A stretch of 64,000 bases of DNA from the NCBI GenBank assembly GCA_038049695.1, contig CP142456.1, forward strand, positions 65,747,922 through 65,811,921, given 5' to 3'. Numbering within the stretch: the stretch's first letter is position 1; every line of letters starts with the position of its first letter. Below the pieces are notes generated by a model, which ran no database searches, was not told the origin of the DNA, and worked only from the letters and a program-made list of their open reading frames with translations. Position numbers and translations under genes: made by a program. Below, piece by piece: positions 1 to 64,000 of this stretch. The DNA comes from Cinnamomum chago (taxonomy: Eukaryota; Streptophyta; Magnoliopsida; Laurales; Lauraceae).

Positions 1-1866
1 GGGCCCCACGCGTACTCTCCTGCAACGGGTGCCTCGACTACAGCTAGTGTGTCATCTGAAATCTCGGGATCAAGGCCTAAGCACCAATGAATGGGTCAGA
101 TCTAAACGATCTGACAAGATACAGCATACTACTAACATAGAACATATATATCAAAGGAAATAAAGACGAGTACATAAATTAAATGAATAGCAAGGGAAAT
201 GAACTAGGCAGGTGTGCATGATAATCATAAGGAACTAAGATAAATAGAAACATCTAAACTACTGTAAACAAAGGGGCACATTCACACGAGCTGGAATACC
301 GCGGGATATTATGCTGCGGCCCTCCCATACTGAACACAGTTGCGGCGGGGAAATCTCACCAGTGGGAATAACTAATCCCAAATCTCACTCATCATCTCAT
401 CACCTCAACACTCCAGATCGGCACGGTATCACACCGTCCGTCTCAACCACACAGCTCATCATGATGGCTCCTCAACACTCAACTAGCTCCTACCGGGGAT
501 GATCAGTCCACAGGCTGAGCTTAAATCAACCGAGTGAATGTTCATGCCGACTCGAGAATAACTCTAAGGTCTGTGTCTGTCTAGGCTTTGCCTTGCGTGA
601 ACAAGGTCCTAACAATATCTCTAAGAGGTCTACATATCTCAATACAGTCTCTGGATCTCATTCAAGGTCCAGGCCCACTCGTTGGATCCATACCAAGGCC
701 CATCAGTACATGGCCTGGTCTAAACCGTCCAAACGAGGCAACTAATCCATCTATTACTGATAACAGTTCCATTACAATCCATAACAGCTTAACAGTCCAA
801 TAAGAACTACCTCTTCCAGCTAAAGGGTTCACATCTCCACACTTAGGCCCAATAAGGGCCCGCCTAGACACAGACACGGGTCAATGATCTCTGAAACCAC
901 ATTATCGGGTCACCTCTAGATACCCTAGGTTCAGGTCTTCCAATTATGTTTAATTAACAGTAAACATCTAATCTAAAGATCTAAGAATGACAGAACAATA
1001 ATAAGGAAGTATGAACTTCAACATAGGAATCAAAAGGGAAATCCAACGGTCCAATCCTAGGTAATGGGCCACTTTAGGTTCGGGTCTATCTCCGGTAATT
1101 CGATCTCTAAACGATATCATTAATGCCGTAAAATATTGTATTTGGTGCTTAGTTGATTAAGGGCATTGTTGACAACTCTTAGAGGTCGAATCATCTTAGA
1201 TTATCAACCAAAACACTAAACAGTGGTCCCAGCGAGTCAAGGTTGAGCCACACCGTTGACTCGGGCTTAGGACACTGATAAATACTCATTTGGATGGTCA
1301 ATGGGCCCCACAACTGATCATATCTCCTAAATGTTGAAAGATGGAAAATCAGGGTTTTCCAGGTGAACCTGATGTGGTGTGAGCTCGGTTGATTTCTTGG
1401 CCTGGAAGATCAACCGAGTGCACTAACTAATCTAAATCAGGCTTCCTGGACAACTCAATTCGTTTCCAAAGGTTTCCAGCGTGTTCGGTCAAACCCCTGG
1501 CCTGGGTGATTGATCGAATACTCCAAAAACCTTAGAAATGGTTGATGTCCCAGCCTTAAACATTATCTAAAGTAAAAATCATAATATCAAGTCAATCTAG
1601 GTGTAAAGGGTCCAAGTTCCGGTTGGAAAAAACCGACTTTCAGTCACTTCTTGCACTAAGAGTATGCACCAGGTCAACAGGTGCAAGACCGGGTCAACCT
1701 GGCCATTTAGAATGAGTTTTATGCAAGAAATGGCTGAGGGCCAATTTTTCCAAGATTTTCCAGTGTGGCCGGTTATCCTGGGCGGGTCCCTGGTTAACCT
1801 GCCCTACATGGACTCAGCCTGCAGAAGGAAAACATCTGGGAGCAGGATTTCTGCAAAGTGCAGTTT

Positions 1867-2042
1867 GGCCGGTTAACCGGCCTGCAGGGCCCGGTTAACC
1901 GGCTGACCTGCAGCATGCCCCTGCAGAAGAATAACTGGGAGCTATGATTTTCCCATTTCTGCAATTTCAGTGTGGCCGGTTGACCGGCCTGCAAAGCCCG
2001 GTCTACCGGCTACACTGCCGGTTAACCAGCCGGTCTACCGGC
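1867..2042. repeat. Cluster of CCGGTTAACCGG-type palindromes in the LTR
   Basis: This stretch holds a perfect 16-bp palindrome (GGCCGGTTAACCGGCC, 1867-1882), a 12-bp one (1891-1902), an imperfect one (GGCCGGTTGACCGGCC, 1974-1989) and further CCGGTCTACCGG-like copies, interleaved with CTGCAG motifs. The same cluster starts near 6472, 15487, 24501, 33531 and 42561 in the other LTRs. Each palindrome can form a short hairpin and contains GGTTAA, which is also the core of plant GT-1 sites; a regulatory role is only inferred. Confidence 0.8.
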
Positions 2043-2369
2043 ACCCTGAAACGGGAGAAATCCCAATTGATGTAACCTTTCTGTTTTGCCTCCTTTTACA
2101 CCCAAATCACTTCCAATCACTTCCAAACTTCACCAACACCATTCTAAACATAAAATGACTCCATAACCATCCATCCATCACCTTATGGCCCACTGATCTT
2201 CCAAATGGGGGGTGAAAACCCCCATCCATCAGTGACCTTTCATCCAAAACACAAAACAGAGCTCAAAGGAAATCTAACATTTAACTGAACATATTATGAA
2301 CTGAAATGGAATCACAGAAATAACCACACATCCTAAGTTAGTAGTTTGATGCACTTGCCTTTTTAGCTT

Positions 2370-3230
2370 GAGATAGAGAGAGGTTTGTGAAGAGAAATCC
2401 CAACCCAGCAGTGAAGAAGAGGAAATAAATCCCAGCTGCTGTAGCAGAGTGTAGCAGCAGCTCCAAATAGTCCCAGCACAATTGAAATGGTCCCAGTTCC
2501 AGGGAGAAGAAGAGATATGGCAGCTGTAGCTCCTTAAATGAAGAATTCCAGCACAACAGAGAAGGAAGAGGAGTAATTGCAGCACAGATTCAGCCCAGCA
2601 GTGAAGTGAAGAATAAGAAGAAGAAGAAGAAGAAGAAAAAGAATCCAGCAGTAGCTTCAAGATGGACTTACAGCAACAGCAACAGTCCAGCAGAGTAGTG
2701 GTTCCAGCAGAGAACCACCACAGCAACTGGAAAATGAAATGAGAAGGGAAGATGGGGTAATAACAGCAGCTCTTGGAAAATTCCAGCAGAGTGACAGTTG
2801 CAGAGAAATGAAGAGAGGAATAGGAAGATGGAGCAGCAACTATAATACTTCCTCTCAGCACAGAAATCAGAACTCCAGCAAAGTAACAGGGCTGGATGAG
2901 GGGAAATGAGAGAAAGGGAAAAGAGAGAAATGAAGAAGATGAAGGGGTGGCTGCAGCAGTAGTTCTTCAAGGTGAGGTTCCAGCAGTCACAGCAGCCCAG
3001 GTGGATTTCCAGCAATTTCTCCAACACAACAGAGAAGCTGGAGATGGTGTAGTAGCTGCCACTGGAAAGATGTCCCAGCACAGAGTCTGTAGCTCAGGTG
3101 AATGAGGAAGAAGACAGCCACAGCAGCAACAATCTCAGCTCAGAAGTGGAGAAGAAGAATAGAAAGAAGGAGCACAGCAGCTGAGTAGTGGTTTTCAAGA
3201 AGATAGTCTCCAGCACAGTCTCAATGGAAC
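2370..3230. repeat. Purine- and CAG-rich low-complexity part of the LTR
   Basis: The plus strand is dominated by variants of CCAGCAG and GAAGAAG, including a GAA run near 2610-2640. It opens long frames on both strands that translate to Ser/Leu/Cys-rich or charged low-complexity peptides. These have no recognisable domain and I do not call them genes. The same block recurs in every LTR. LTR3, LTR4 and LTR5 share an extra 15 bp in its GAAGAAG part (near 25741, 34771 and 43801). Confidence 0.75.
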
Positions 3231-3321
3231 TCTTTGCTCAACGTGGGAGAGGAAATGAAGGGAAGGGGCAGTTGGGCTGGAGGTTTTCTTGGGATTAGGG
3301 CTCTCCTTGGGGATAAGAGAT

Positions 3322-3330
3322 TATTTATAG
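3322..3330 (-). promoter_or_regulatory. Candidate TATA box of the LTR promoter
   Basis: The minus strand reads CTATAAATA, a good plant TATA match, about 450 bp inside the element's 5' LTR edge. Copies lie at 7927-7935, 16942-16950, 25971-25979, 35001-35009 and 44031-44039. If this is the real promoter, U3 is about 0.45 kb and the transcribed part of the LTR is about 3.7 kb, which is unusually long. Other TATA-like strings exist in the LTR, so the choice is uncertain. Confidence 0.4.
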
Positions 3331-3584
3331 TTTTAGTGGGGAGTGATTAGGGACCATAATACCCTTAGGGTTTAATGGGATTAGGGTTAGGGTTTGAGGC
3401 TAATCTGGTCTTTTGGTTAGGAAGCTTCTAGAGAGAGAGGGCACCTTTCTTAGCACTAAACCCACACTAATTAACTTAATTAAACTTAACTAAGGACCCA
3501 CCTACACTAATAGCCTAGGATTAACTCATACACCCAACTAACCTAGTCTAACCAAAAATCTTAGGAGATCTAACTAGTCAATCT

Positions 3585-3735
3585 AATTAGCCCCTAATTA
3601 GCCCAAATAAATCAGTAATTAACAATGATTAGCCATAATTAGCAATAATTAGCGAAGATTAGCAAAGATTAGTAGAGATAGTAGTAATTAGCAATAATTA
3701 ACCAATAATTAACATAGATTAGCATAAATTAGTCT
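3585..3735. repeat. AT-rich degenerate short tandem repeat near the LTR 5' edge
   Basis: Variants of AATTAGCAAT and AGCAAAGATT follow each other for about 150 bp. The number of AGCAAAGATT units differs between LTRs: one in LTR0 and LTR5, two in LTR1-LTR4. This makes it a useful marker of LTR ancestry. Confidence 0.75.
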
Positions 3736-3778
3736 ATAAAGTAGTATTTAGAGGGCCCACCAAGGGTGGGACCTCACA

Positions 3779-46282: not shown

Positions 46283-46783
46283 TTTTTTTTTTTACTATCG
46301 GTGGGTTCCCAATCCTTTTGGTTGGAATAATTCCTCCAGGCTTAGAGGGAAGCCGGGTAAACTCTCCTTAGCCCAATGGTTAAAAATATAGAAAGCAGTG
46401 GGAGCGGATTAACCTTTAAGTCTAGGTACAAAAGTATTGGGCTGGACATGCTTGTCAATATGAGGCTGTCCAAACAGTCCTTGGGGGATTAATCCCTTCG
46501 AGCCAAGAGGGATGCCGGGTAAACTCCCCTGTAACCCAAGTGTGGTAGTGTAGTTTCGAATCTACAACCTCCAGATGCAAACCGTTGGAATCATGACTGT
46601 TTGGAGAGCCTCATATTGACAAGCATGTCCAGCCCATTACTTTTGTACCTAGACTTGAAGGTCAATCTGCTCCCACTGCTTTCTATATTTTTAACAGTCC
46701 GGCTTCCCTCTGGATCAGGAGGGATTAGTCCAACCAAAATGATTGGGAACCCAACAATAGTAAAAAAAAAAAAAAAAAAAAAA
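46283..46783. repeat. Foldback repeat: two arms of about 190 bp, head to head
   Basis: The left arm (46283-46479) starts with a T run and the right arm (46595-46783) ends with an A run; the two are inverted copies. Examples are GTGGGTTCCCAATCC on the left against GATTGGGAACCCA on the right, and GGCTGTCCAAACAGTC against GACTGTTTGGAGAGCC at the inner edges. A third related piece (GCCGGGTAAACTCC, near 46515) lies in the 115-bp spacer in direct orientation to the left arm. It could be two SINE-like copies inserted head to head, each ending in poly(A), or a foldback MITE. No clear target duplication was seen. Confidence 0.75.
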
Positions 46784-49324: not shown

Positions 49325-50052
49325 GCCTATTCAATCACACGAAAGTCAGCCCGGATTCCAGCCGCAGTATCCTAGGCAGCAATACCAACAACCTATTCAA
49401 ACTAATCATCCCATGGCTCCTCATCCTCAGCAGCCCACACAGCAAAATCAATTTCACCAACAACATCAGTTCCAACCACATAACCAGTGTAGGACATCAG
49501 TACTAGATCAGATGCCTATCTACTTTACACCAACACAAGCCCCTCAGCAATCCTCTCATATGGAGAACCTATTAACCAAATTCATTCAAATCCAAAAGCA
49601 GACTAACCAGGCCCATAACCAGTCCATTGCAAAACTAGAGGCCCAATTATGTCAGCTCACCTTACAGTTGCTCGAGAGAGAAAATGGCCAATTCTCGAGC
49701 CAAACCATTCTTAATCCGAAAGGACAACCCAATCAACTCAGAGGCCAGTGTTCGGTATAGAGTAATGAGCATGTGTAGTCAAACCATACACTAAAATCAG
49801 GAAAGACTATTGACAATAGAGTTGAGATGCCTGAAAATTATCAAAAAGAGGAGTTTTTTAAGAAAACCGTAGAATTCGAGGAAAGTTGTTGAACCCCTGA
49901 GAGACAAATTGAAGGAAAATTTGAAAAAGAATGCAAAAAGAGATAGAAGAATCCATACCAAGAAGAGAGCCATAGAGAAAGCAGATTTAGAAGCCCATTG
50001 TAGTTGAACCATCATCTTTAAAAGTGGTACCTAGAGCACCATTCCCACACCT
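49325..50052 (+). mobile_element. Gag C-terminal fossil of the old Ty3/Gypsy element
   Basis: The start is very Gln- and Pro-rich. Then comes a helical stretch of the type MENLLTKFIQIQKQTNQ followed by KLEAQLCQLTLQLLEREN, which is the conserved segment before the protease in Athila/Tat-like gag proteins. It ends where the CACTA transposon begins. It is broken at several points. Confidence 0.75.
50050..50052. other. CACTA target-site duplication, left (CCT)
   Basis: CCT directly before CACTACAA. The same three bases follow the right terminus at 57481-57483. CACTA elements make 3-bp duplications. Confidence 0.85.
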
Positions 50053-50089
50053 CACTACAAAAAAAAGGATTTTTAGTCTCGCTTTTGAA

Positions 50090-50300
50090 ACGAGCTTTTG
50101 TGTCGCTTTTACAATAAAGTGACACAGTATGGTCTGATGTGTCACTTTAGAGGAGGAGTTAACGAGGAGGAGGTTTGTTGGGTCACTTTTCTATAACGCG
50201 ACACACAAAATAAATTTATGGTTTTCCCCCACTAAACAAAAGTGACACAAGAAGTTTGATTGTTATTTTCTTTCATGAAATAGGAAAGAAAAACGACACA
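50090..50300. repeat. CACTA left subterminal repeats
   Basis: Repeated variants of GTGTCGCTTTT, AAAGTGACACA and TGTGTCACTTT in both orientations close to the left TIR, like the transposase-binding motifs of En/Spm elements. Confidence 0.75.
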
Positions 50301-50552
50301 TGAATTTGGGCAAGTGATAATTTGGGTTCCTCCATCGTAAGCATTTCATTCCCTCACTCCAACCCTAATCGACTCCACTACGCATCTCACTGCGGAAAAA
50401 ACCAGACCTGCATCGTATTCGTTCCTCAAGAGACTTCCATCCGTTAATGGCAGATCTGCTACCATCTCCTTCAGATCTCCTTCCATCTCCTTCAGATCTC
50501 TACTAGTCTCCACTACTTCCTCAAATTTCTTTCAATCCTCCACTCGAAAAGT

Positions 50553-50684
50553 ATGCTGTGATTGAGAGCATTTCGTCCTTCAAACGACAAGATCGTGAAG
50601 ATCCAGCTCCATCCGACGCATCCATGGCTCGTCACGGCAGACGCATCGGATCATGTATCCGTATGGAACTGGGAGCATCGCCAG
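50553..50684 (+). pseudogene. Captured first exon of a TWD40-type WD-repeat protein
   Basis: Translation from the ATG gives 44 codons, including KIVKIQLHPTHPWLVTADAS and VSVWNWEHRQ. This matches the N-terminus of the plant transducin/WD40 protein related to coatomer, known in Arabidopsis as TWD40-1. The exon ends at a GT donor (GTGGGT) as a real exon 1 would. Codon 3 is TGA where the family has Arg (CGA); one C-to-T change at a CpG explains it and makes the copy unable to start normally. The 250 bp before it, with repeated CTCCTTCAGATCTC, may be captured 5' UTR. Family identification is from memory of the sequence and is fairly firm. Confidence 0.75.
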
Positions 50685-50824
50685 GTGGGTATCTTCTTCT
50701 TTGAAATTGGTCTCTTTCTCTCTCTGATGCAACTTGATTGATCATTTGTGGGTTCTCTCTCTCCCTTTCTCTCTCTATTTCTCCCTCCCTCCCTCCCTCC
50801 CTCCCTCTCCCTCCCGCTCTGCAG

Positions 50825-51077
50825 CGTGCCCTATAAGGGGATCGTGCACTGCGGGGGCACGGTGATCCGCACGGAGGGCATGAGGGCGCTGTGGAAGGGG
50901 CTAACGCCCTTCGCCACCCACCTCACCCTCAAGTACACCCTCCGCATGGGCTCCAACGCCCTTCTCCAGTCCCCCTTCAAGGACCCCACCACCGGCCACA
51001 TCTCCAATCGCGGCCGCCTAGCCGCCGGATTTGGCGCCTGCGTCATCGAGGCCCTCCTCATCGTCACCCCCTTCGAG
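50825..51077 (+). pseudogene. Captured exon of a mitochondrial succinate-fumarate carrier
   Basis: This GC-rich exon begins after a CAG acceptor and ends with CCCTTCGAG before a GTAGAT donor. Its 84 codons include EGMRALWKGLTPFATHLTLK and NRGRLAAGFGACVIEALLIV, matching plant members of the mitochondrial carrier family closest to the succinate-fumarate transporter (SFC1 type). It covers the end of one carrier repeat and the start of the next, and stops inside the PFE(V) signature. No frame damage is seen within the exon. Only this piece is present, so no functional carrier can result. Its GC content is much higher than that of the surrounding DNA, and a CT-rich tract precedes it. Confidence 0.8.
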
Positions 51078-51510
51078 GTAGATATCTATGCCACCAATCT
51101 CCACTTTCTTTTTCTTCTGTCTCTTCTGTCTGCTGCTGCTGCTTCTTCTTCTTCTCTTGGGTTTGTTTTCTGTTTGAGTATTTAGGTTGGTTTGGTGGTA
51201 CCATGGTAGTTTAGATGGGATCAGCTGATTGGGTAACAAGTAGATTTTTCCAAAAAAATCTGCTTCAAGATGTCTTATTTTTAGATTTCCGAACAACTTT
51301 GAAATGAAAGAACAAATTTTCTTGGATGGATTGTGAAGGAAATGGATTTGCTTGAGAAGATTTCACTATCCTCTGAAATCTTATTATCTTGTGTATTTCA
51401 ATGAGATTTCTTCAATATATTAGCTTTGATCCTTTTTTTTTGGTTGGTTGCTACACTCAAATTGATAACTATTACCTCCCACCACTTCCCCACAAGATTT
51501 GTTTTTGAAG

Positions 51511-51597
51511 GTTGATTTGGATCTTGGAAACTATGAACGATTTTTAGATGTGAAGTTGACTCGTGACAACAATATCACCATTGGGAAGATTTACCAG
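51511..51597 (+). pseudogene. Captured exon of CTP synthase
   Basis: 29 codons reading [20 protein letters not shown] and then NITIGKIYQ, the highly conserved N-terminal segment of CTP synthase (glutamine-dependent UTP amination, pyrimidine synthesis). Borders are clean: TTTTTGAAG before and GTATGT after. The only unusual residue is Ile where the family has Thr in NITTGKIYQ. Flanking DNA looks like intron from the donor gene, but I cannot tell how far it extends. Confidence 0.85.
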
Positions 51598-52171
51598 GTA
51601 TGTCTTCCAGGAGACTGTTCATGTTAATTGTCATTGTCATAGTATTTTTAGTTGAATTTAGCGAAGTCTTTCTGTTACTAATTGTATTGCATCATCTAGC
51701 TACTTAAATTTCCTGGTGCAACTCCTCATTCATGATTGTTGTTTGCTTAAAACCAAAATCTCTATACAGATTATTTCTTTAGATGTTGTAAAACTTATCA
51801 AAAGACCTTCTAAAATATCAGAAACTGCAAGGACACTAGGATCCCTGTTTTGAATTTTGAATATCAAGTTTCTTCAATATTAAGGAGAAACAGTAGAGAC
51901 ATTTTCAACCAAGAAGGAAACAGTCTAATAATCTGCTAATAGATCTGACTGTTCTGTTCTCATCCAATGTTCTGAGATCTGAATTTTTTATGACTTGTTG
52001 AAACTGTGTTCTCTGGGCTTCGAAAGTTAATGATAATGAGGAAAGTTCTCTCAAGTTGCCCAACGTCCCATAGAATGAAGTGGGCCTAGTCCTGGCATTG
52101 TTGATTGATAAACACAAATCAATGCAAAAGATAATTTGGATATTTGTCTCTAGTCTTTCTTTGTTCTGTCT

Positions 52172-52508
52172 GGGTTCTGAACCAATGTTATGAAACCCAG
52201 ACCAGACTGTCTGGTTGAAATTTGGGTTTCAACTAGAATCAGTACCTTCACCATTCCAGTTAGATCAAAACCGGCACATGCTCAAAAACTGGTATTTACA
52301 GGCAAATGTGGAAAGAACCAGTCAAAATCACTAAAAATTGGTGGTTGAACTCCTTGGACCCACCATTAAAATAATTTCCTTTATTTTTTTTTTTAATGAG
52401 TTGAAACGGCATAGTTGAACTTGGTTAAACCAGATGGCGAAATGGTTTGGACCGAACTGCCCTCTCCATTGTTTCACCCTCTAGTTTTTATAACACTGTT
52501 TCTAACCC
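52172..52508. mobile_element. Candidate MITE within intron-like DNA of the CACTA
   Basis: A 337-bp segment whose ends are imperfect inverted repeats: GGGTTCTGAACCAATGTTAT on the left, and GGGTTAGAAACAGTGTTATA when the right end is reverse-complemented. The interior repeats AAACC/GGTTT motifs. No convincing target duplication was found, so the class is open (hAT-like is possible). Confidence 0.4.
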
Positions 52509-52861
52509 AGAGTTTGGCTTCATACATGTGATAATGTATTCTGTATGTTGAATGAACAAGTGTGAGTTGATTGTACAGGCATCCATCTGATCATTAACCA
52601 AATTGATAAGTATGGGACCTGGGTCCTGCGCTTACTTTTCAGGTGGTAATCCCCCATGTTTGATTGACATTGCACCTAAGATTGGATGGATTTTTGTAGT
52701 TGTAACTTTGACCTGCAACCGAGTGGGGCGTGATCAACTAATAGTAGCTAGATCCTCTTTTAAGGAAAGAAAAAAGCAGCTAATTCATCCTTATTTCTCA
52801 TTTCTGTTGGGCAAAAGAACCTTGTATGAGGTGCCTTTTGGACTGACTTTGATATGTTTAG

Positions 52862-53200
52862 AAAGCGTTAAGTAAAGAGAAAAACCATACAACTTCTACT
52901 TTGGTGGAAACTGATGCCAGTTCATCCAATGTGGCTTCAATTGGTATAGTTGAAAAGGCCAGTGTTGATCAGCTTCCAAAGGAAATGCATGAAATGAAAA
53001 TTAGAGATGATAAAGTTGATAATCATGATGAAAAGGTGATATTCCATTTCAAGATATCTCCATGTGTCTGTATAGTTAGTTTAGTTTCATATTTTCAGTA
53101 TATTAAATGCAGGTCACATGTATGGTTTTATGATGCCATTTAATTGGTTTTGGTGGATGGATCTAGCACGATTTGGAAGCTGCTGTCGTGAATGGTAACC
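52862..53200 (+). pseudogene. Captured N-terminal exons of a GSK3/SHAGGY-like kinase
   Basis: An open segment (52862-53035) ends in SVDQLPKEMHEMKIRDDKVD and NHDEK before a GTGATA donor. A second piece at 53170-53200 reads DLEAAVVNGN. Plant SHAGGY-like kinases have this pattern (DQLPE.M..M..RDDK then (D)(L/M)E..VVNGNG) just before the kinase domain. The kinase domain itself is absent, so only the N-terminal regulatory extension was captured. The upstream 20 codons are not recognised and may be UTR. Paralogue assignment is not possible from this stretch. Confidence 0.7.
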
Positions 53201-53389
53201 ATTTAGAAATGGGTTCCAGGTCGACCAACCCCAAGCTCGCCCAAATGGCATGTGGGTAAGTCTGAGCCCAAATGAGGACCAAATTGCTGGCTCATCCCTT
53301 GTTGTAAGATCTGTCACAGGAAAACCTTTCTGATTGGATGTTTCTTGTCTCACAATTTTCCCTTATTGTTAATTGGCTGTAGTCATTCA

Positions 53390-53507
53390 TTTTCCAGCAA
53401 TCAATTAGATAGCTTGAATCATAAAATAAGGAACATTTGTGGGGCAAAACCTTTCCCATGATGGAGCTCTTGGCTCTCTAGATGAATGGCTTATGATTAC
53501 CAAAAGG
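53390..53507 (+). other. Possible captured exon, unrecognised
   Basis: A stretch beginning after a TTTTCCAG-type acceptor and followed by GTGGGTG. One frame (from about 53430) reads GTFVGQNLSHDGALGSLDEW. I do not recognise it. It lies between captured fragments of two different genes, so it may be a further donor or extra intron. Confidence 0.3.
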
Positions 53508-53513
53508 TGGGTG

Positions 53514-53532
53514 CACACACACACACACACAC
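53514..53532. repeat. (CA)n microsatellite
   Basis: About nine CA units in intron-like DNA of the CACTA interior. Confidence 0.9.
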
Positions 53533-53647
53533 TTTATGTTTGAGATATCATTGGTTATTAATCATTTTAAAAAACTGATCAAAAAAATGTTAAAAAAGGT
53601 ATGAATTGTTTTGCAGCCTTCATCTTATACTGATTTGTATGTGACAG

Positions 53648-53785
53648 GTGAAGAGGCTGGAAGCTCTAAGCAAGTTCAAGGCTGGAGAATGTAACATTCT
53701 CATATGCACTGATGAGGCCATCAGAGGACTTGACATTCCTTCTGTGGATATGGTGGTCAATTATGACATACCCTCCAATTCTAAG
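53648..53785 (+). pseudogene. Captured exon of a DEAD-box RNA helicase
   Basis: 46 codons between a GTGACAG acceptor and a GTTTGA donor-like end. The translation includes [20 protein letters not shown] and [20 protein letters not shown], which is helicase motif V and its surroundings in the C-terminal RecA-like lobe. It is closest to the DDX47/Rrp3 type that acts in pre-rRNA processing. The normal CTDVASRGLD is changed to [10 protein letters not shown], so motif V is altered. The frame is open but represents only one exon. Confidence 0.8.
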
Positions 53786-54339
53786 GTTTGATTTTCTTTT
53801 GTAATGGCCTTTTCCTTTTCTTTTTTCTTCTCCTAGTTTACATCTTGGTAGAGGTGAATACACTTGGTTGCAATTTTGCCCATGTACACCTCATTACAAA
53901 TAAATGATTGAGGAGGATCTAGAGATTCCTTTAATGAAAGATAAGAGGGGTTTTTCATTTTAACCAGTCAATGTTATGCATCACCTGCCAAAGGGTTTTT
54001 GCAATTTAGTGGTTTCTAAAGAAAAGAACAATATAAAGTAGATTACTTGAGATATGAATATGTAAGAAAGCCATTCTCTTTGATCACCATTTCTTTGCTA
54101 TAAGTTACTAGTGGGATTGTCAATCCTACTTGCACATGTTTCCGTACCATTTTTTTGGTTTTTTGGGTGTATTTGTGTATTTGGTAGATATTTTTGTGCT
54201 TCATGTGGCTAATATGTACAAGAAAACGGCCATCAAATGTGATTTTCTTATGTGCTAGAAGATCATGTGATTTTATATGATTGAATGTGATACTAATTTG
54301 TGTCCTGATTCCTACTATGCCTTTGATTGCTTAACAGGT

Positions 54340-54402
54340 TTTCACGTCTTACTTGATCATGTAAGAGCACCCACTGGAATAGCACAACACTCATCTTCTG
54401 AG
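54340..54402 (+). other. Possible captured exon, unrecognised
   Basis: Bounded by GCTTAACAG and GAG/GTGCTC. One frame reads FHVLLDHVRAPTGIAQHSSS. I cannot assign it to a family. A piece of an eighth donor gene or chance are both possible. Confidence 0.3.
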
Positions 54403-54903
54403 GTGCTCTTTATTTTAATATACAAATGCTTTAATCTCACCTCCATCATTTCCTGTGTATGAACTAGTCCAGGTCGAGCAAACAGAGAAGTCTCTTTAGG
54501 AAAATCCTTTAATTTTTTTTCTCTTTTTGAGAAGAGGGCATCACATATAGGAAATTGGGGGCTGTCAGGTTTCCATACAGGCTTTGGGCATTTCTTTTAA
54601 AGGTAATATCTAGATGCGTAAACAATTCGGTTTCTGTAATTGAAAATCACCTTACTGTTTTTGGGAGCCACATGACAGGCATTCCAAAGAGACAAGACGA
54701 AAAAAATAGAAATATCTCATCAAAGATTAGCGTGGTATGTTATGACTTGTTATCCTAAGAAGGCTTTATTTTGAAATAAAGCATTTTCATGACTTTGAGC
54801 CTATATTGATTTTTTAAGTCATATGAAAGTCTTTAATATCACCATGCTTGATCATTAGACAAATGAAGGAAATATCTAATTGTGAATGTGTCTTTTATTG
54901 CAG

Positions 54904-55110
54904 GAATTGGATCTATTGAACTGAGGTTTGGGTTTGGAACTTGGAATTAAGGGAATCATTTAGTCATAATGGGCAAGAAGAAGGTGGATGAGACTGCTAC
55001 AACCAACAAAACAAAGGCCAAAGATGGAGGACCCAAGAAAGAGAAGATGTCAGTCTCTACTAAGCTTGCCAGCATGGACCAACCCAAGTCTGAAAAGTCC
55101 AGGGAATCAT
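54904..55110 (+). pseudogene. Captured start of an ABCF (GCN-type) protein
   Basis: After a TTGCAG acceptor comes about 65 bp of probable 5' UTR, then an ATG at 54969. The N-terminus reads MGKKKVDETATTNKTKAKDG and then GPKKEKMSVSTKLASMDQ. This is the Lys-rich N-terminal tail of plant ABCF proteins of the ABCF4/GCN4 group, soluble ATPases tied to translation control. No ATP-binding domain follows. Near 55100-55119 the sequence switches to the ABCG fragment without an intron between them. The two donors are in different frames across the join. Confidence 0.75.
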
Positions 55111-55119
55111 TTAGAGAAA

Positions 55120-56330
55120 CATCCCACCTATGATCGGATTAGGAAAGGAATTCTGAGCACAGATACTGGAGAGCTGAAGGAAGTCAATGTTAAGGATCTC
55201 AACCATCAAGAGAGATGGAATCTGTTAGAAAGATTGATTAAAGTTGGAGAGGATGACATTGAAAAGTTCCTTTTGAAGCTCAAGAACAGAGTAGAAAAGT
55301 AAGCTCCTATGTTTATGTCTCACTTGTTTTGTAGATTTTGGGGTGACTTTCAAACATACGGTGTCCATGAACCAATGAATCACATTCATTTGATGGGTCT
55401 GTTCCTGTTCTGTTCTGTTCTGTTCTTTTATGATATTCAGAGTTGGAATTGAGCTTCCCACTATCGAAGTCCGATTCGAGCATTTGAACATTGAAGCTGA
55501 AGCATATGTGGGTAGCAGAGGTTCACCCACAGTCATCAATTTCATCTTTAATATGCTAGAGGTAACTCTCTTGATAAATATGCATGCATTTGGGTGTCTG
55601 TAATCTTCTGTACTTTCAGAAGTTTTGATTTGGCAATTCCTATTTCATTTTTAAAGGGGCTCTTGAGCACTCTTCATATTCTTCCAAGTCCATGATATCA
55701 GCGGAATCATCAAGCCTCATAGGTAAGTGAAGTTCTTCAAACAATTCACAAATTGATTTTTACATGATTATCTGATTATGTTATTTGTTTTACATCCCTG
55801 AAACATGCAATTGATTCACCTGCAAATTTTGCAGAATGACTTTGCTTTTAGGACCTCCGAGTTCCGGTGAAACCACTTTATTATCAGCTTTGGCAGGAAA
55901 GCTTGACAAAGATTTAAAGGTAGAGATTCTTTTTTTTTTTTGTCCCACCTATATATTGGAGGCTATATTATTTACATCTAATACTTTTTAGAACATCAGG
56001 TTTCTGGAAGAGTTACTTACAATGGTCATCAAATGGATGAGTTTGTACCTCAAAGGAGCTCTGCTTATATTAGTCAAAATGATACCCACATTGGGGAAAT
56101 GACTGTGAGAGAAACACTGTCTTTCTCTGCTCGATGCCAAGGAGTCGGAGCCCGCTACGGTTAGTCAAGTGAATGGTTTGAGTTATGAGAATTAGATCAG
56201 GCCATTTTTGGGGTCTCAATCAGTAACTTCTCCATTCCAACAATGATTTGCAGAAATGTTATAGGAACTTTCAAGAAGGGAGAAAGAAGCAAATATTAAA
56301 CCAGATCCAGACTTAGATGTATTCATGAAG
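55120..56330 (+). pseudogene. Captured 5' part of a PDR-type ABCG transporter (six exons)
   Basis: Six exon-like pieces (55120-55298, 55441-55561, 55657-55722, 55835-55919, 56000-56159, 56254-56330) have GT...AG introns. They encode the ABCG N-terminal domain (HPTYDRIRKGIL, VGIELPTIEVRFEHLNIEAE) and the first ATP-binding site up to [20 protein letters not shown] and EANIKPDPDLDVFMK. Full PDR transporters are plasma-membrane exporters of about 1400 residues; only about the first 240 are represented. Walker A reads GPPSSGET where the family has GPPSSGKT. The third piece has lost several codons and its frame, and the last begins with a stop soon after its acceptor. It cannot make a transporter. 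Confidence 0.85.
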
Positions 56331-57125
56331 GTAAGAAGCAAGGACATAATTTTGGATCTAGCTTTTGTTTCTTTTTGTATATATTCTTAACATTTATGTT
56401 CAAGATTGTAAAAACAGAGGCACCCTTATAATGTGATTGGACTTTTTGTCTCACTGCTAAATGAATATTTGATTCTCCCATGTACAGTGATCTTGCTGTA
56501 GCCTACCTGAATTTCCTTTTGATATGGTTTTATTGAGACTAGTTTCTTAATTAAATGTTTTCATTGTTGGATATTTTCTAAGAAGACCAGGTTTGGTGTA
56601 GTGATATCATCCTGTCAATTCTATTATAAGCTGTGCTGCTACTTGAAAAAAGAACAAAGAGAAACTGAATTATTTATGTATTTACAAAACTGGTGTTGTA
56701 TACAAAATACAGTAATCATCATTATTTGCTTGAAATATATAATTATTGTTGGGGCTATGCAGGTTCATGGAGATTACTCTGAAATGTGGGAGTAAAGTTG
56801 GAGAGGCCCTCTGAAGAAACCGTGGTTGAGGTTATGTCGTGACGCTTTGGTTACGAATTCGAAGGTTAATGTAAATAGTTTGGATTATGGATGGATTCAA
56901 ATTGGCTATGTTTTGAATAATTTGTTTGATTTAGTGCGTGGACGAACAAGTACGTTCCTTAATGTGAATGGTGATTAATTTCCAATTAATGAAATGGTTC
57001 TTATTGAATGTTGCTATTAATATTTTTTTGCATCTTTTGTAAGGCAGGTTTAGTGATTTGAATGTGTATCCATACTGCAGCATGTTATTAGTAATGTATA
57101 TATTGCATTTTTATTTTAAAAAAAA
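56331..57125. other. CACTA interior right part, no gene recognised
   Basis: AT-rich DNA after the last captured exon. The first part is probably the next ABCG intron. The rest has no recognisable coding pattern, tRNA or transposase domain. Confidence 0.5.
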
Positions 57126-57129
57126 TGGA

Positions 57130-57465
57130 TGGTATCTCGCTTTTACGAAAACTGTCACAACTGATGACTATTTGTGTCACTTTTGGTCCGAAAACAACAT
57201 ATTGATCACTGCTTTTGAAAAGGGAGACAACAAAGTTATCTTTCTTGTGACGCTTTTAAGTTATTTCAGTGTCACTTTTGGGTTTAAAGTGACACAAGTA
57301 ACCTTTTTTTGTGTCACTTTGATAACAGAAACTAACACAACAAAGGTATTTCTTGAGACGCTTTTACGAACTTTTAGTGACGCTGGCAGATAAGACGCTT
57401 GCATAGTCATCAGAAAAGCTACACAAACCACTTTTTAAGACACTTTAAAAGTGACTCATTAAGAC
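57130..57465. repeat. CACTA right subterminal repeats
   Basis: Dense copies of TGTGTCACTTTT, AAAGTGACACAA, GTGACGCTTTTA and GAGACGCTTTTA in both orientations next to the right TIR, matching the left subterminal set. Confidence 0.8.
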
Positions 57466-57480
57466 ATTTTTTTTGTAGTG

Positions 57481-57483
57481 CCT
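57481..57483. other. CACTA target-site duplication, right (CCT)
   Basis: CCT directly after the terminal GTAGTG, matching 50050-50052. Confidence 0.85.
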
Positions 57484-61824: not shown

Positions 61825-62965
61825 ATTTATCTGAGTTTCTATGAAATTTATCTGAGTTTCGGTGAAATTTATCTGAGTTTTTGTCAAATTTATCTGTGCT
61901 TTAGTCAAAGTTATATGTGTTTTTGGCAAATTTATATGGGTTTTCTTAAAAATTTATCTGAGCTTTTGAAAAATCCATCTGCGTTTTTTGGCAAATATAT
62001 TTGTGTTTTTTAATTTTATTTATGTCTTTTGAAATTTGTTTGCGCTTTTTTTAAATTTATTTTCATTTTTTTAATTTTATTTACGTATTTTGAAACTTAT
62101 TTGCGTCTTTTGGAATTTATTTACATTTTTTGAAATTTATTTGGATCTTTTGAAATTTACTTATCTGAGTTCTTGAACAAATTTATCTAAGTTCTGAATA
62201 AATCTATCTGAGTTTTCATTCAAAATTATTTAAATTTTTGAAAAATATAGCCGAGTTTTTGACAATTTTATCTCTATTTTGAAATTTTTAACTGAGTTTT
62301 TGAACAAATCTTTTGGTGTTTATGGCAAATTTATTTGAGTTTTTTTAGATCTATTTTTGTTTTTGAATTTTATTTGTGTCTTTTGAAATTTATTTTGTAT
62401 TTTCTGAAATAAGTTTAACTGAGTTTTGACAAAAATACTTGAGTTTTTGACAAGTTTTTTCTGAAATTTGGAAAATTGGTTTATCTTAGTTTTAGCAAAT
62501 TTATTTGCGATTTTTTAAATTTATTTTTTATTTTTTTATTTTATTTACATCTTTTGAAATTTATTTGCATCTTTTGGAATTTATTTGGATCTTTTGAAAT
62601 TTATTTGGATCTTCTGAAATTGATTTTCATCTTTTGAAATTATTTAGATTTTTTTAAATTTATTTGGATCTTTGAAATGTATTTGCGTCAAATTCTTCGT
62701 GTTCTTTTGAAATTTATTGCTTTTTTTGAAATTATTGCATTTTTTTTAAATTTATTTGCATTATTTCAAATTTATTTATATTTTTTGAAATTTATTTGCG
62801 TCTTTTGAAATTTATTTGGATATTTTGAAATTTATTTGCGTCAATTTCTCTGTGTTCTTTGAAATTTATTGCATTTTTTGAAATTATTGCGCTTTTAAAA
62901 TTTATTTGCATTCTTTTGAATTTATTTGTATTTTTGGAAATTTGTTTCTATTTTTTAGAATTTAT
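61825..62965. repeat. AT-rich degenerate minisatellite (about 20-25 bp unit)
   Basis: The left part repeats TTTATCTGAGTTTTTG-type units and the right part repeats TTTGAAATTTATTTGCGTC-type units, with intermediate forms between them. The unit drifts along the array, as expected for local duplication with mutation. Confidence 0.8.
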
Positions 62966-64000
62966 TTGAAAATCTAATTAATGGGATTTCATTAATCATT
63001 GCCAATTAAATGGTAGTTACCATTATTAATGGCATATCCCACTAATCGTGGGATATGATTATGAATAAAGGGTAAATTAGACATTTTAGCTCTTCAAATT
63101 TGAAAAAAAAACCCTATCACACTATGAAAAAGGATTGTGGATTTAAGGTTATAAAGTGAAATGTTTAGGGACCCGTCGCCGAATGCCCCATTTTATTTTG
63201 CCTTTTCTATACTTTTATATTATAATTAGGAGTTTAAGTGTATCTAATCTAGAGAGTGCATAATTGAAGATCATTAATGAAGATTTGGAGCTCTTTCTTG
63301 ATGTTTAGTGGCTAAAGCTCTTGGATTAGGCTCTCCTTTTGAAGTTAAGTAATGTGATTAGTTCAATTACATGTATGTTTTAGTTTAAATTCCCTACTTG
63401 TGCCTTTATTAATTAGTAGATTTTAGATCTAATTGTGCTCATCTCTCTCATTTCTCATGCTCTATCTCTACACTTGATGCTTAGATAATCTTAATTGATA
63501 CTTTGTAGTTGGATTAAATTCTCTCACATAGCATGCTTTAAAGCCCTTATCTTTGATCTTCTGTAACTTGATTTTGATGATTTATTGTTAGGGTGGCTAG
63601 ATGATGATCTAGGATCTTGGCCTTTGATTTTCTTTTACTTTGATCTTTATTGTTATATTATCCAATTCAATTAGGCAAGAGATTGCTAATTGGATTGTAG
63701 ATTTGGGAGTTGAATTAGAACATGCATTGTTTAAATTAATTACATACTTAGTGGATTTTGGATTGCCTAATCTCTTATTTTTATTATTGTTAATTTGAAT
63801 CATCGTTTTAAAATCATACACATTTCACACGACTTGTTTTAAAATCCTACATATTTAATACCACATCTTCACATTAAATCTTCCATTTCCACCACCATTC
63901 ATCCACTAGTTTAGTGTAGTTTGTTAGATCTTGTTAATTTCATATTTTAAACTGTTAGTTAGAGTAGTTTAGTTGCTATTTTAATTTTATTTCACATTTC
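62966..64000. other. AT-rich DNA, no gene recognised
   Basis: Part lies inside the candidate insertion (to 63189) and the rest is probably 3' LTR sequence. Short open frames here have no recognisable domain. Confidence 0.5.

Follow-up and report, generated by a model that had tools for sequence, protein, structure and literature searches.

The element at positions 50053-57480 of the window (the whole stretch of 64,000 nucleotides analysed) is a genuine plant DNA transposon, a non-autonomous Pack-CACTA, and its cargo, about 6.2-6.5 kb in total, is a patchwork of pieces from about ten host loci that are unrelated to one another. The element has CACTA ends, its cargo is shared by four copies and traces to separate sources, and it stands in a mosaic relation to other members of its family. 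Very probably, this family was recently active, and the cargo was built stepwise from host-gene pieces, some of which were joined second-hand.

Element ends and classification

The left terminal inverted repeat (TIR), CACTACAAAAAAAA (50053-50066, plus strand), has its exact reverse complement at the right end (57467-57480, minus strand; 14 bp, no mismatch), and the 3-bp target-site duplication (TSD) CCT flanks the element on each side (50050-50052 and 57481-57483). The 12-base TIR core CACTACAAAAAA occurs once per strand across the 64-kb window, both times at the element ends, so that this search on both strands detected no second TIR inside the element. With at most 1 mismatch and both strands counted, the subterminal motif GTGTCACTTT occurs at 5 sites in each end (left 278 bp, right 350 bp), compared to means of 0.09 and 0.10, respectively, in 200 shuffles; the 6,800-bp interior, where it was sought as a scar of fused elements, has 0 sites. 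The left terminal region that carries these repeats (50053-50374, plus strand) is common to ten other members that we read; the right one extends from approximately 56860 to 57480 (plus strand). Comparison of six read-through frames to Pfam identified no transposase family within the element, and on the minus strand no family reached the Pfam cut-off (one weak match, ArfA, E = 0.031). A preliminary description of this DNA had reported the perfect TIRs, the CCT duplication, the subterminal repeats and the lack of a transposase, all of which were confirmed. Together with host coding DNA that has sources elsewhere and termini that recur in a family (see below), these are the features of a Pack-CACTA.

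Helitrons are elements without TIRs or TSDs, whereas this element has both, as do nine other complete members of the family, each with paired TIRs and a matching 3-bp TSD of its own. Maize Helitrons can contain as many as 12 gene fragments, acquired step by step, according to part of the published account (PMC3288121), but in view of these ends there is next to no chance that the element is anything other than a CACTA transposon, be it a Helitron or some other element that captures genes.

Cargo pieces and their sources

All cargo coordinates refer to the plus strand, and a source is defined as the best genome match for which a short stretch of sequence showed none of the ends of this family. 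The leftmost piece (50370-50756; source C4:86724315) contains the 5′ UTR, exon 1 and the start of intron 1 of a TWD40 gene, with 44 of 45 residues identical to a Persea protein. The adjoining SFC-CTPS block (50754-51602), found in other CACTA elements too, includes a CT-rich stretch (50757-50829), an exon and intron of a succinate-fumarate carrier (SFC; 50830-51500; source C3:129751557-129752227; Mito_carr in Pfam, E = 2.8 × 10−6), and a single 103-bp exon of CTP synthase with both splice sites (51500-51602; candidate sources C12:48405601, C4:86778634 and C1:92459039; CTP_synth_N, E = 7.2 × 10−11). An intron piece (51596-52852; source C1:14482374-14483629) comes from what we take, given the exon residues that flank the source stretch in L043, to be a ferrochelatase gene. 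It is followed by a 40-bp piece (52849-52888; source C3:14532291, on chromosome 3) and by an exon, an intron and part of the following exon of a GSK3/shaggy-like kinase (52887-53199; source C7:55927154-55927466), with 47 of 49 residues identical to Persea. Further to the right, we identified a DEAD-box helicase exon (53648-53785; Helicase_C, E = 6.4 × 10−13), and two small stretches within 53200-54244 match C6:13658550-13658950. The ABCF4 piece (54245-55110; source C5:17746476-17747282, minus strand) comprises an intron, the 5′ UTR, the start codon and the first 46-47 codons, with 43 of 47 residues identical to Cinnamomum. Exons and introns of a PDR-type ABCG gene (55110-56581) match the PDR gene cluster at C4:26.93-27.05 Mb; compared to Persea P0002, the exons have 46/64, 35/43, 25/29, 48/54 and 19/22 identical residues, the third exon just 9/15. 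The last piece (56604-56850) comes from the end of a gene for ribosomal protein eS1 (S3a), as judged from last-exon residues read by eye, and is shared with L032-type members.

In the element's own genome (1.06 Gb), eight pieces have separate chromosomal sources, introns included. The source matches extend over 103 to about 1,500 bp at 93-99% identity, plus one 40-bp match at 95%. Because introns are included, capture occurred from DNA: RNA-mediated capture yields pieces without introns, whereas the SFC, GSK3, PDR, ABCF4 and ferrochelatase pieces contain intron sequence that aligns with their sources. Loci matching single pieces sit at separate places, and we found none that holds the pieces contiguously without CACTA ends. 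One further candidate, C8:10932386, was rejected as a second TWD40 source because it proved to be a further element bearing the left end of the family. An assembly artefact or chance resemblance to exons is scarcely conceivable, given the length and identity of these matches and four copies in different places with the pieces in the same order.

The seven genes named in the preliminary description (TWD40, SFC, CTP synthase, GSK3, DEAD-box, ABCF and PDR-type ABCG) are all real by protein or Pfam matches. Its count of at least seven holds, with about ten sources now apparent; the ferrochelatase intron, the 40-bp piece and the eS1 end had been missed. Its view of the element as an unusually rich case holds, and the element is richer than described; the copies elsewhere in the genome had not been noticed either.

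Same-cargo copies and mosaic structure

The genome search that had been proposed for donors and sister elements yielded, besides the eight sources, three more copies at other places in the genome, each complete in length and with the same cargo in the same order (98.1-98.4% over the full length; TSDs ATA, TGG and AGC). Substitutions among the four same-cargo copies amount to 0.6-1.0%. Four copies with different target duplications imply that the element probably transposed at least three times after the PDR capture. The termini recur as well: the left end is present in at least 40 copies at 97-100% (40 scored out of 515 candidates), and these include six complete family members with other cargo. 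Reading the frames of L032, L034, L035 and L037 by eye, we recognised TWD40 in L035 and L037, the eS1 exon in L032, and nothing else; on the plus strand, no Pfam domain was found in L034 or L037 at E ≤ 0.01.

In its left half the element is similar to TWD40-type members, in its right half to members of the L032 type (eS1). We compared 46 left ends, a set that took in 17 of 41 entries in the TWD40 list (nearly the whole query covered) and 38 of 41 in the eS1 list, and left out L047, whose left end is that of the family and which also carries TWD40. Among the ends listed, TWD40 and the eS1-type right end occur together only in the 4 same-cargo copies, whereas 13 have TWD40 only, 8 have eS1 only and 21 have neither; the eS1 list comprises the 40 scored out of 473 candidates, so that 'none seen' does not equal absence. 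The SFC-CTPS block, with the same joint, is also present in L041, an element that is complete and belongs to a second CACTA family; beyond this block, L041 shares no stretch of at least 40 bp with the four same-cargo copies. L042 was not counted as a second complete element of that family because its right end was absent from the 10.2 kb examined. Since a second CACTA family already contains the joined SFC-CTPS pair, and each half of the element resembles a different kind of member, some of the cargo was probably acquired second-hand. The chimera in two terminal families also indicates that cargo can pass between CACTA families. The earlier claim of repeated independent captures therefore stands only in part.

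The TWD40 piece diverges from its source by 0.6-1.1% and the PDR piece by 0.6-1.8%; divergence from source is not a clean clock, because TWD40, which is widely shared, should be old, yet diverges no more than PDR.

Joints between pieces

Consecutive source matches overlap by 5 bp at terminus/TWD40, 3 bp at TWD40/CT-rich block, 1 bp at SFC/CTPS, 7 bp at CTPS/ferrochelatase, 4 bp at ferrochelatase/40-bp piece, 2 bp at 40-bp piece/GSK3 and 1 bp at ABCF4/PDR, these being raw values, not set against chance. The element's sequence at the ABCF4/PDR joint, AGGGAATCATTTAG, has an exact match 151 bp upstream in the 5′ UTR of ABCF4 itself, whereas the ABCF4 source reads AGGGGATCATCA at the position of the joint; among 500 shuffles, 4 produced a 14-mer repeated within 200 bp. 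This joint looks template-copied, but could alternatively be a plain join with one G-to-A change. The occurrence of CATTTAG at two joints was dropped as a motif because the GSK3 end is uncertain there.

Origin of the cargo

Taken together, the mosaic and the SFC-CTPS joint shared with a second family suggest that the cargo was extended by joining pieces in series, some of them second-hand. Host-gene pieces would have been copied or joined at the DNA level in several steps, with introns retained and the identified pieces all in sense, and some steps probably joined material already carried by other CACTA elements (the TWD40-type left end, the SFC-CTPS block and the eS1-type right end). The PDR piece would have been added before the whole element transposed further, presumably by cut-and-paste mobilisation via the TIRs and subterminal repeats, with transposase supplied in trans from elsewhere. 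By a slight preference, we attribute the joints to microhomology-guided template switching during the repair of double-strand breaks in or next to the element, rather than to fusion of neighbouring elements alone. Under the tandem-insertion model, for which part of PMC8903248 gives examples, two related elements land near each other, transposition then relies on their outer ends and the intervening DNA becomes cargo, which would yield a TWD40-type left half and an L032-type right half, as seen. However, the interior contains neither the subterminal motif nor a second TIR, although the model allows scar-removing deletions and 53200-54244 lies mostly outside the assigned pieces, and most assigned pieces are short exon-intron bits of different origins, end to end. 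We consider this model a minority possibility.

Selection on the cargo, whether in the role of a chimeric gene or for splice-friendly camouflage, with sense kept because the pieces are spliced together or out, appears less likely still. As the preliminary description had noted for the pieces it recognised, orientation is uniform: all nine named gene pieces are in sense (9/9; two-sided p = 0.004 in a sign test if independent, which is too generous because the pieces were not all acquired independently). Splice sites on the captured exons are mostly canonical (21 listed sites read), and Tgm-Express1 uses its five pieces as extra exons, as part of PMC1947982 describes. Conversely, no single open frame runs through the cargo, and the PDR piece has a 23-bp deletion and a stop that all four copies have in common and that none of the sources read contains. 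This stop is TAG in the element and TAA in L021, and was rejected as a C-to-T change because L025 and L026 read AAG. The TWD40 stop (TGA at codon 3 in the window copy, CGA in L021-L023 and in the source) was rejected as old decay, being private to the window copy.

A broader proposition, that multi-gene Pack-CACTAs arise mainly when CACTA families exchange preformed blocks of cargo, by synthesis-dependent repair that is guided by microhomology and biased towards keeping every piece in sense, and that they act as a string of cassette exons and introns when in a gene, is tentative and rather doubtful.

Comparison with known systems

How CACTA elements capture gene pieces is unsettled, and many joints here are readable to within a few bases. 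With readable joints, sources, four copies and partial-cargo relatives in one genome, the order of capture and the type of DNA repair become directly testable. The class itself is already known from soybean Tgm-Express1, a 5.7-kb CACTA element with intron-exon pieces of five unrelated host genes that serve as extra exons of the gene in which it lies, and the present element is an unusually rich, joint-resolved member. Compared to Tgm-Express1 as portrayed in part of its account (PMC1947982), it has about ten sources rather than five pieces, four same-cargo copies, resolved sources and joints, and cargo shared with another CACTA family. It resembles the Pack-CACTAs of Arabidopsis, rice and maize, as characterised in part of PMC8903248, in combining TIRs, a TSD and coding pieces with the absence of a transposase. 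That text assigns maize Pack-CACTAs the most distinct loci of any Pack-TYPE group and favours fusion of neighbouring insertions, whereas the joints here are short overlaps and internal terminal remnants are absent. In the Tpn1 family of Ipomoea (portions of PMC5105172), ends are likewise conserved and the interior is swapped for host sequence, and the stepwise capture of many pieces is as in the maize Helitrons cited above. On wheat chromosome 3B, the CACTA families DTC_famc5 and DTC_famc6 both contain the same captured gene, from which the authors infer recent DNA exchange (PMC4290129, in part); here, in contrast, what the families share is a chimera of two genes, identical at its joint and present in the other family as a longer version.

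Element structure and related copies

A perfect 14-bp inverted repeat, CACTACAAAAAAAA, bounds the Pack-CACTA element at 50053-57480, and a CCT duplication flanks both ends. The left 278 bp contain five subterminal repeats resembling GTGTCACTTT and the right 350 bp another five; the 6,800-bp interior has none. These terminal features had all been given in the preliminary description, and its statement that a transposase is lacking agrees with a Pfam search of six read-through frames of the element, which matched no transposase family. We take the surroundings to be a Ty3-type retroelement remnant, judging from protease- and gag-like residues; six flank pieces compared with Pfam gave one weak DUF4055 match and no retroelement family. 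One frame runs through the insertion site once the element is removed from the sequence.

The genome searched comprises 1.061 Gb in 14 contigs (window, C6:65747922-65811921). Sister elements were found: among the best 40 of 515 candidates, the element's first 148 bp gave at least 40 matches (97-100%). We fetched 20 stretches, namely three same-cargo copies, seven other left-end members and ten chosen for the PDR piece; these ten contained no match of at least 60 bp to the element's ends. The same-cargo copies L021 (C4:74323352, TSD ATA), L022 (C2:51125093, TSD TGG) and L023 (C1:32381482, TSD AGC) are full-length and 98.1-98.4% identical to the whole window element, and substitutions between the four copies amount to 0.6-1.0%. 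Six of the other left-end members (L031-L035 and L037) are complete elements of 5.7-7.9 kb bounded by matching TSDs, and their interiors differ from that of the window element; the seventh, L036, extends past its fetched stretch.

Sources of the cargo

Protein and Pfam searches upheld the seven gene identities proposed earlier. For TWD40 (50370-50756), 416 of 417 protein-search candidates had E ≤ 0.001; the best match was Escallonia, and 44 of 45 residues were identical to a Persea protein, the single mismatch being a stop at codon 3 found in the window copy only (L021, L022, L023 and the source are without it). The best matches of GSK3 (52887-53199; Persea, 47 of 49 residues) and ABCF4 (54245-55110; Cinnamomum, 43 of 47) are from Lauraceae. 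Pfam E-values were 7.2e-11 for CTP synthase (CTPS), 6.4e-13 for DEAD-box and 2.8e-6 for the succinate-fumarate carrier (SFC). The PDR-type ABCG piece (55110-56581) has six exons, five matching Persea P0002 well and the third weakly; by E-value Ziziphus was its best match and Persea second. Taken together, these best matches make a host within or close to Lauraceae probable.

Defining a source as the best match lacking the family's ends within the short stretch read, we located source loci at separate places for TWD40 (C4:86724315, the match starting at the end of the element's terminus), SFC (50830-51500; C3:129751557-129752227), CTPS (51500-51602; three loci, 97-98% identity), GSK3 (C7:55927154), ABCF4 (C5:17746476-17747282) and PDR (C4:26.93-27.05 Mb, a PDR cluster matched in exons and introns alike). 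The interval 51596-52852 matches C1:14482374-14483629, presumably ferrochelatase from the residues of neighbouring exons, and the 40 bp at 52849-52888 match C3:14532291, a locus without a gene name. We take last-exon residues in the window, recognised by eye, to be ribosomal protein eS1. L032 has the right block (56604-57480) in common with the window element and holds a larger eS1 piece (PDB 4v7e, E 4.5e-23). The count of at least seven genes thus grows to about ten sources, nine named genes and the unnamed 40-bp locus; loci were located for eight, the other two being DEAD-box and eS1.

In the PDR piece, three changes are common to all four same-cargo copies: a deletion of 23 bp, glutamate in place of lysine in a Walker motif, and a stop. 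Neither the deletion nor the glutamate codon occurs in the fetched stretches L024, L025, L026 and L039, and the stop is absent from L024, L025 and L026 (L039 being unreadable there by the pattern used).

All nine named pieces lie in sense, in line with the single orientation described for the first seven (two-sided p = 0.004 if independent; the 40-bp piece was left out as too short), although the events are fewer than nine because SFC-CTPS arrived as one block. When the plus strands of two further family members were compared with Pfam, no domain was found.

Jukes-Cantor distances from the sources, as ranges over the four copies, were 0.6-1.1% for TWD40, 1.0-2.0% for CTPS, 0.6-1.8% for PDR, 1.9-2.3% for GSK3, 2.1-2.6% for SFC, 2.8-2.9% for ABCF4 and 3.9-4.4% for the ferrochelatase intron. 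This suggests that the PDR piece may be young and the ferrochelatase piece old, within the limits that constraint varies between sources and that a best match may differ from the true donor paralogue. The proposed dating of fragments against donors yields a span of 0.6-4.4%, and TWD40, common to many members, departs from a simple clock.

Probable reuse of cargo, mosaic ends and joints

The interval 51100-51602 recurs in seven further places at 94-98%, and its SFC part in nine. In L041, the SFC-CTPS block lies inside a complete 5,818-bp element with TSD GAT, TIRs CACTACTAGA... (first 10 bp alike) and a GC-rich motif close to both ends; its outer 350 bp hold no GTGTCACTTT-like site, and outside the block it has no match of at least 40 bp to the four same-cargo copies. 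The SFC/CTPS joint is the same in both elements, and the CTPS part is longer in L041. Repeated independent captures, as first proposed, agree with the separate sources of the pieces but account for part of the cargo only: this block, also present with its joint in L041, was probably taken over as a unit. In L042, the block is preceded by a CACTA-type left end of a third kind, CACTACTAGAAAAAAGGG, next to which TATCGGTT repeats form an array; a right end was looked for in 10.2 kb of L042 and not found. At the L042 left end (41570697 of C12, minus), a further CACTAC stands precisely where likeness to L041 ends. Eight other places match the ABCF4-intron part at 54300-54760 with 94-98% identity and may belong to additional elements that carry a truncated version.

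Among the matches listed, 46 left ends fall into four groups: the four same-cargo copies combine TWD40 with an eS1-type right end, TWD40 occurs without eS1 in 13, eS1 occurs without TWD40 in 8, and 21 lack both, eS1 status being taken from the best 40 of 473 candidates. The left 684 bp of L021 are 98.2% identical to L035; its right end is 98.3% identical to L032 and 93-95% to L035. On the simplest reading, the element would be two kinds of family member joined, with further cargo in between.

Adjacent source matches overlap by 5, 3, 1, 7, 4, 2 and 1 bp (raw lengths, any chance identity included). The assigned pieces leave gaps at the 22 bp preceding the eS1 block and over most of 53200-54244. 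At the ABCF4/PDR joint, AGGGAATCATTTAG, a copy of ABCF4 5' UTR, replaces the source's AGGGGATCATCA, which fits a joint made by copying with a template switch; a similar repeat arose in 4 of 500 shuffles within 200 bp and in 15 of 500 within 600 bp, and a plain join with one base change could also have produced it.

Other repeats in the window and genome

A Ty3/gypsy LTR retrotransposon, with a weak match to a chromodomain, is repeated in tandem over positions 1-44479. The array has five long LTR copies of ~4.3 kb, a partial LTR (1-3770) and four ~4.8-kb internal parts, its units in one line at ~9.03-kb spacing and 99.4-100% alike. An AT-rich array of ~20-bp repeats (AAATTTATTTGCATTTTTTG type; longer periods 40, 60 and 171 bp) occupies 61825-62970. 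At 46370-46704 lies an inverted repeat whose two arms of 110 bp, separated by 115 bp, are 92% complementary.

At C10:60656917-60680028, the same 279-bp PDR stretch is matched twelve times (84%) at a regular spacing of ~2,075 bp; this is a tandem array that has incorporated a PDR exon piece. Another dispersed repeat (L027, L028, L029, L030, L038 and L040) carries an overlapping PDR part at ~93-94%, 55413-56581 in four of the six and shorter in L038 and L040; the family's ends are absent from the stretches read.

Comparison with known elements

Pack-CACTAs with cargo from several loci are an established class, so the element's class is not new. Tgm-Express1 carries pieces of five loci (PMC1947982), maize Pack-CACTAs hold more distinct loci than other Pack-TYPE groups (PMC8903248), and exchange between two wheat CACTA families is reported (PMC4290129). 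Compared with the five loci of Tgm-Express1, the window element has about ten sources, and it is a strong case through this number, its same-cargo copies and its resolved joints.
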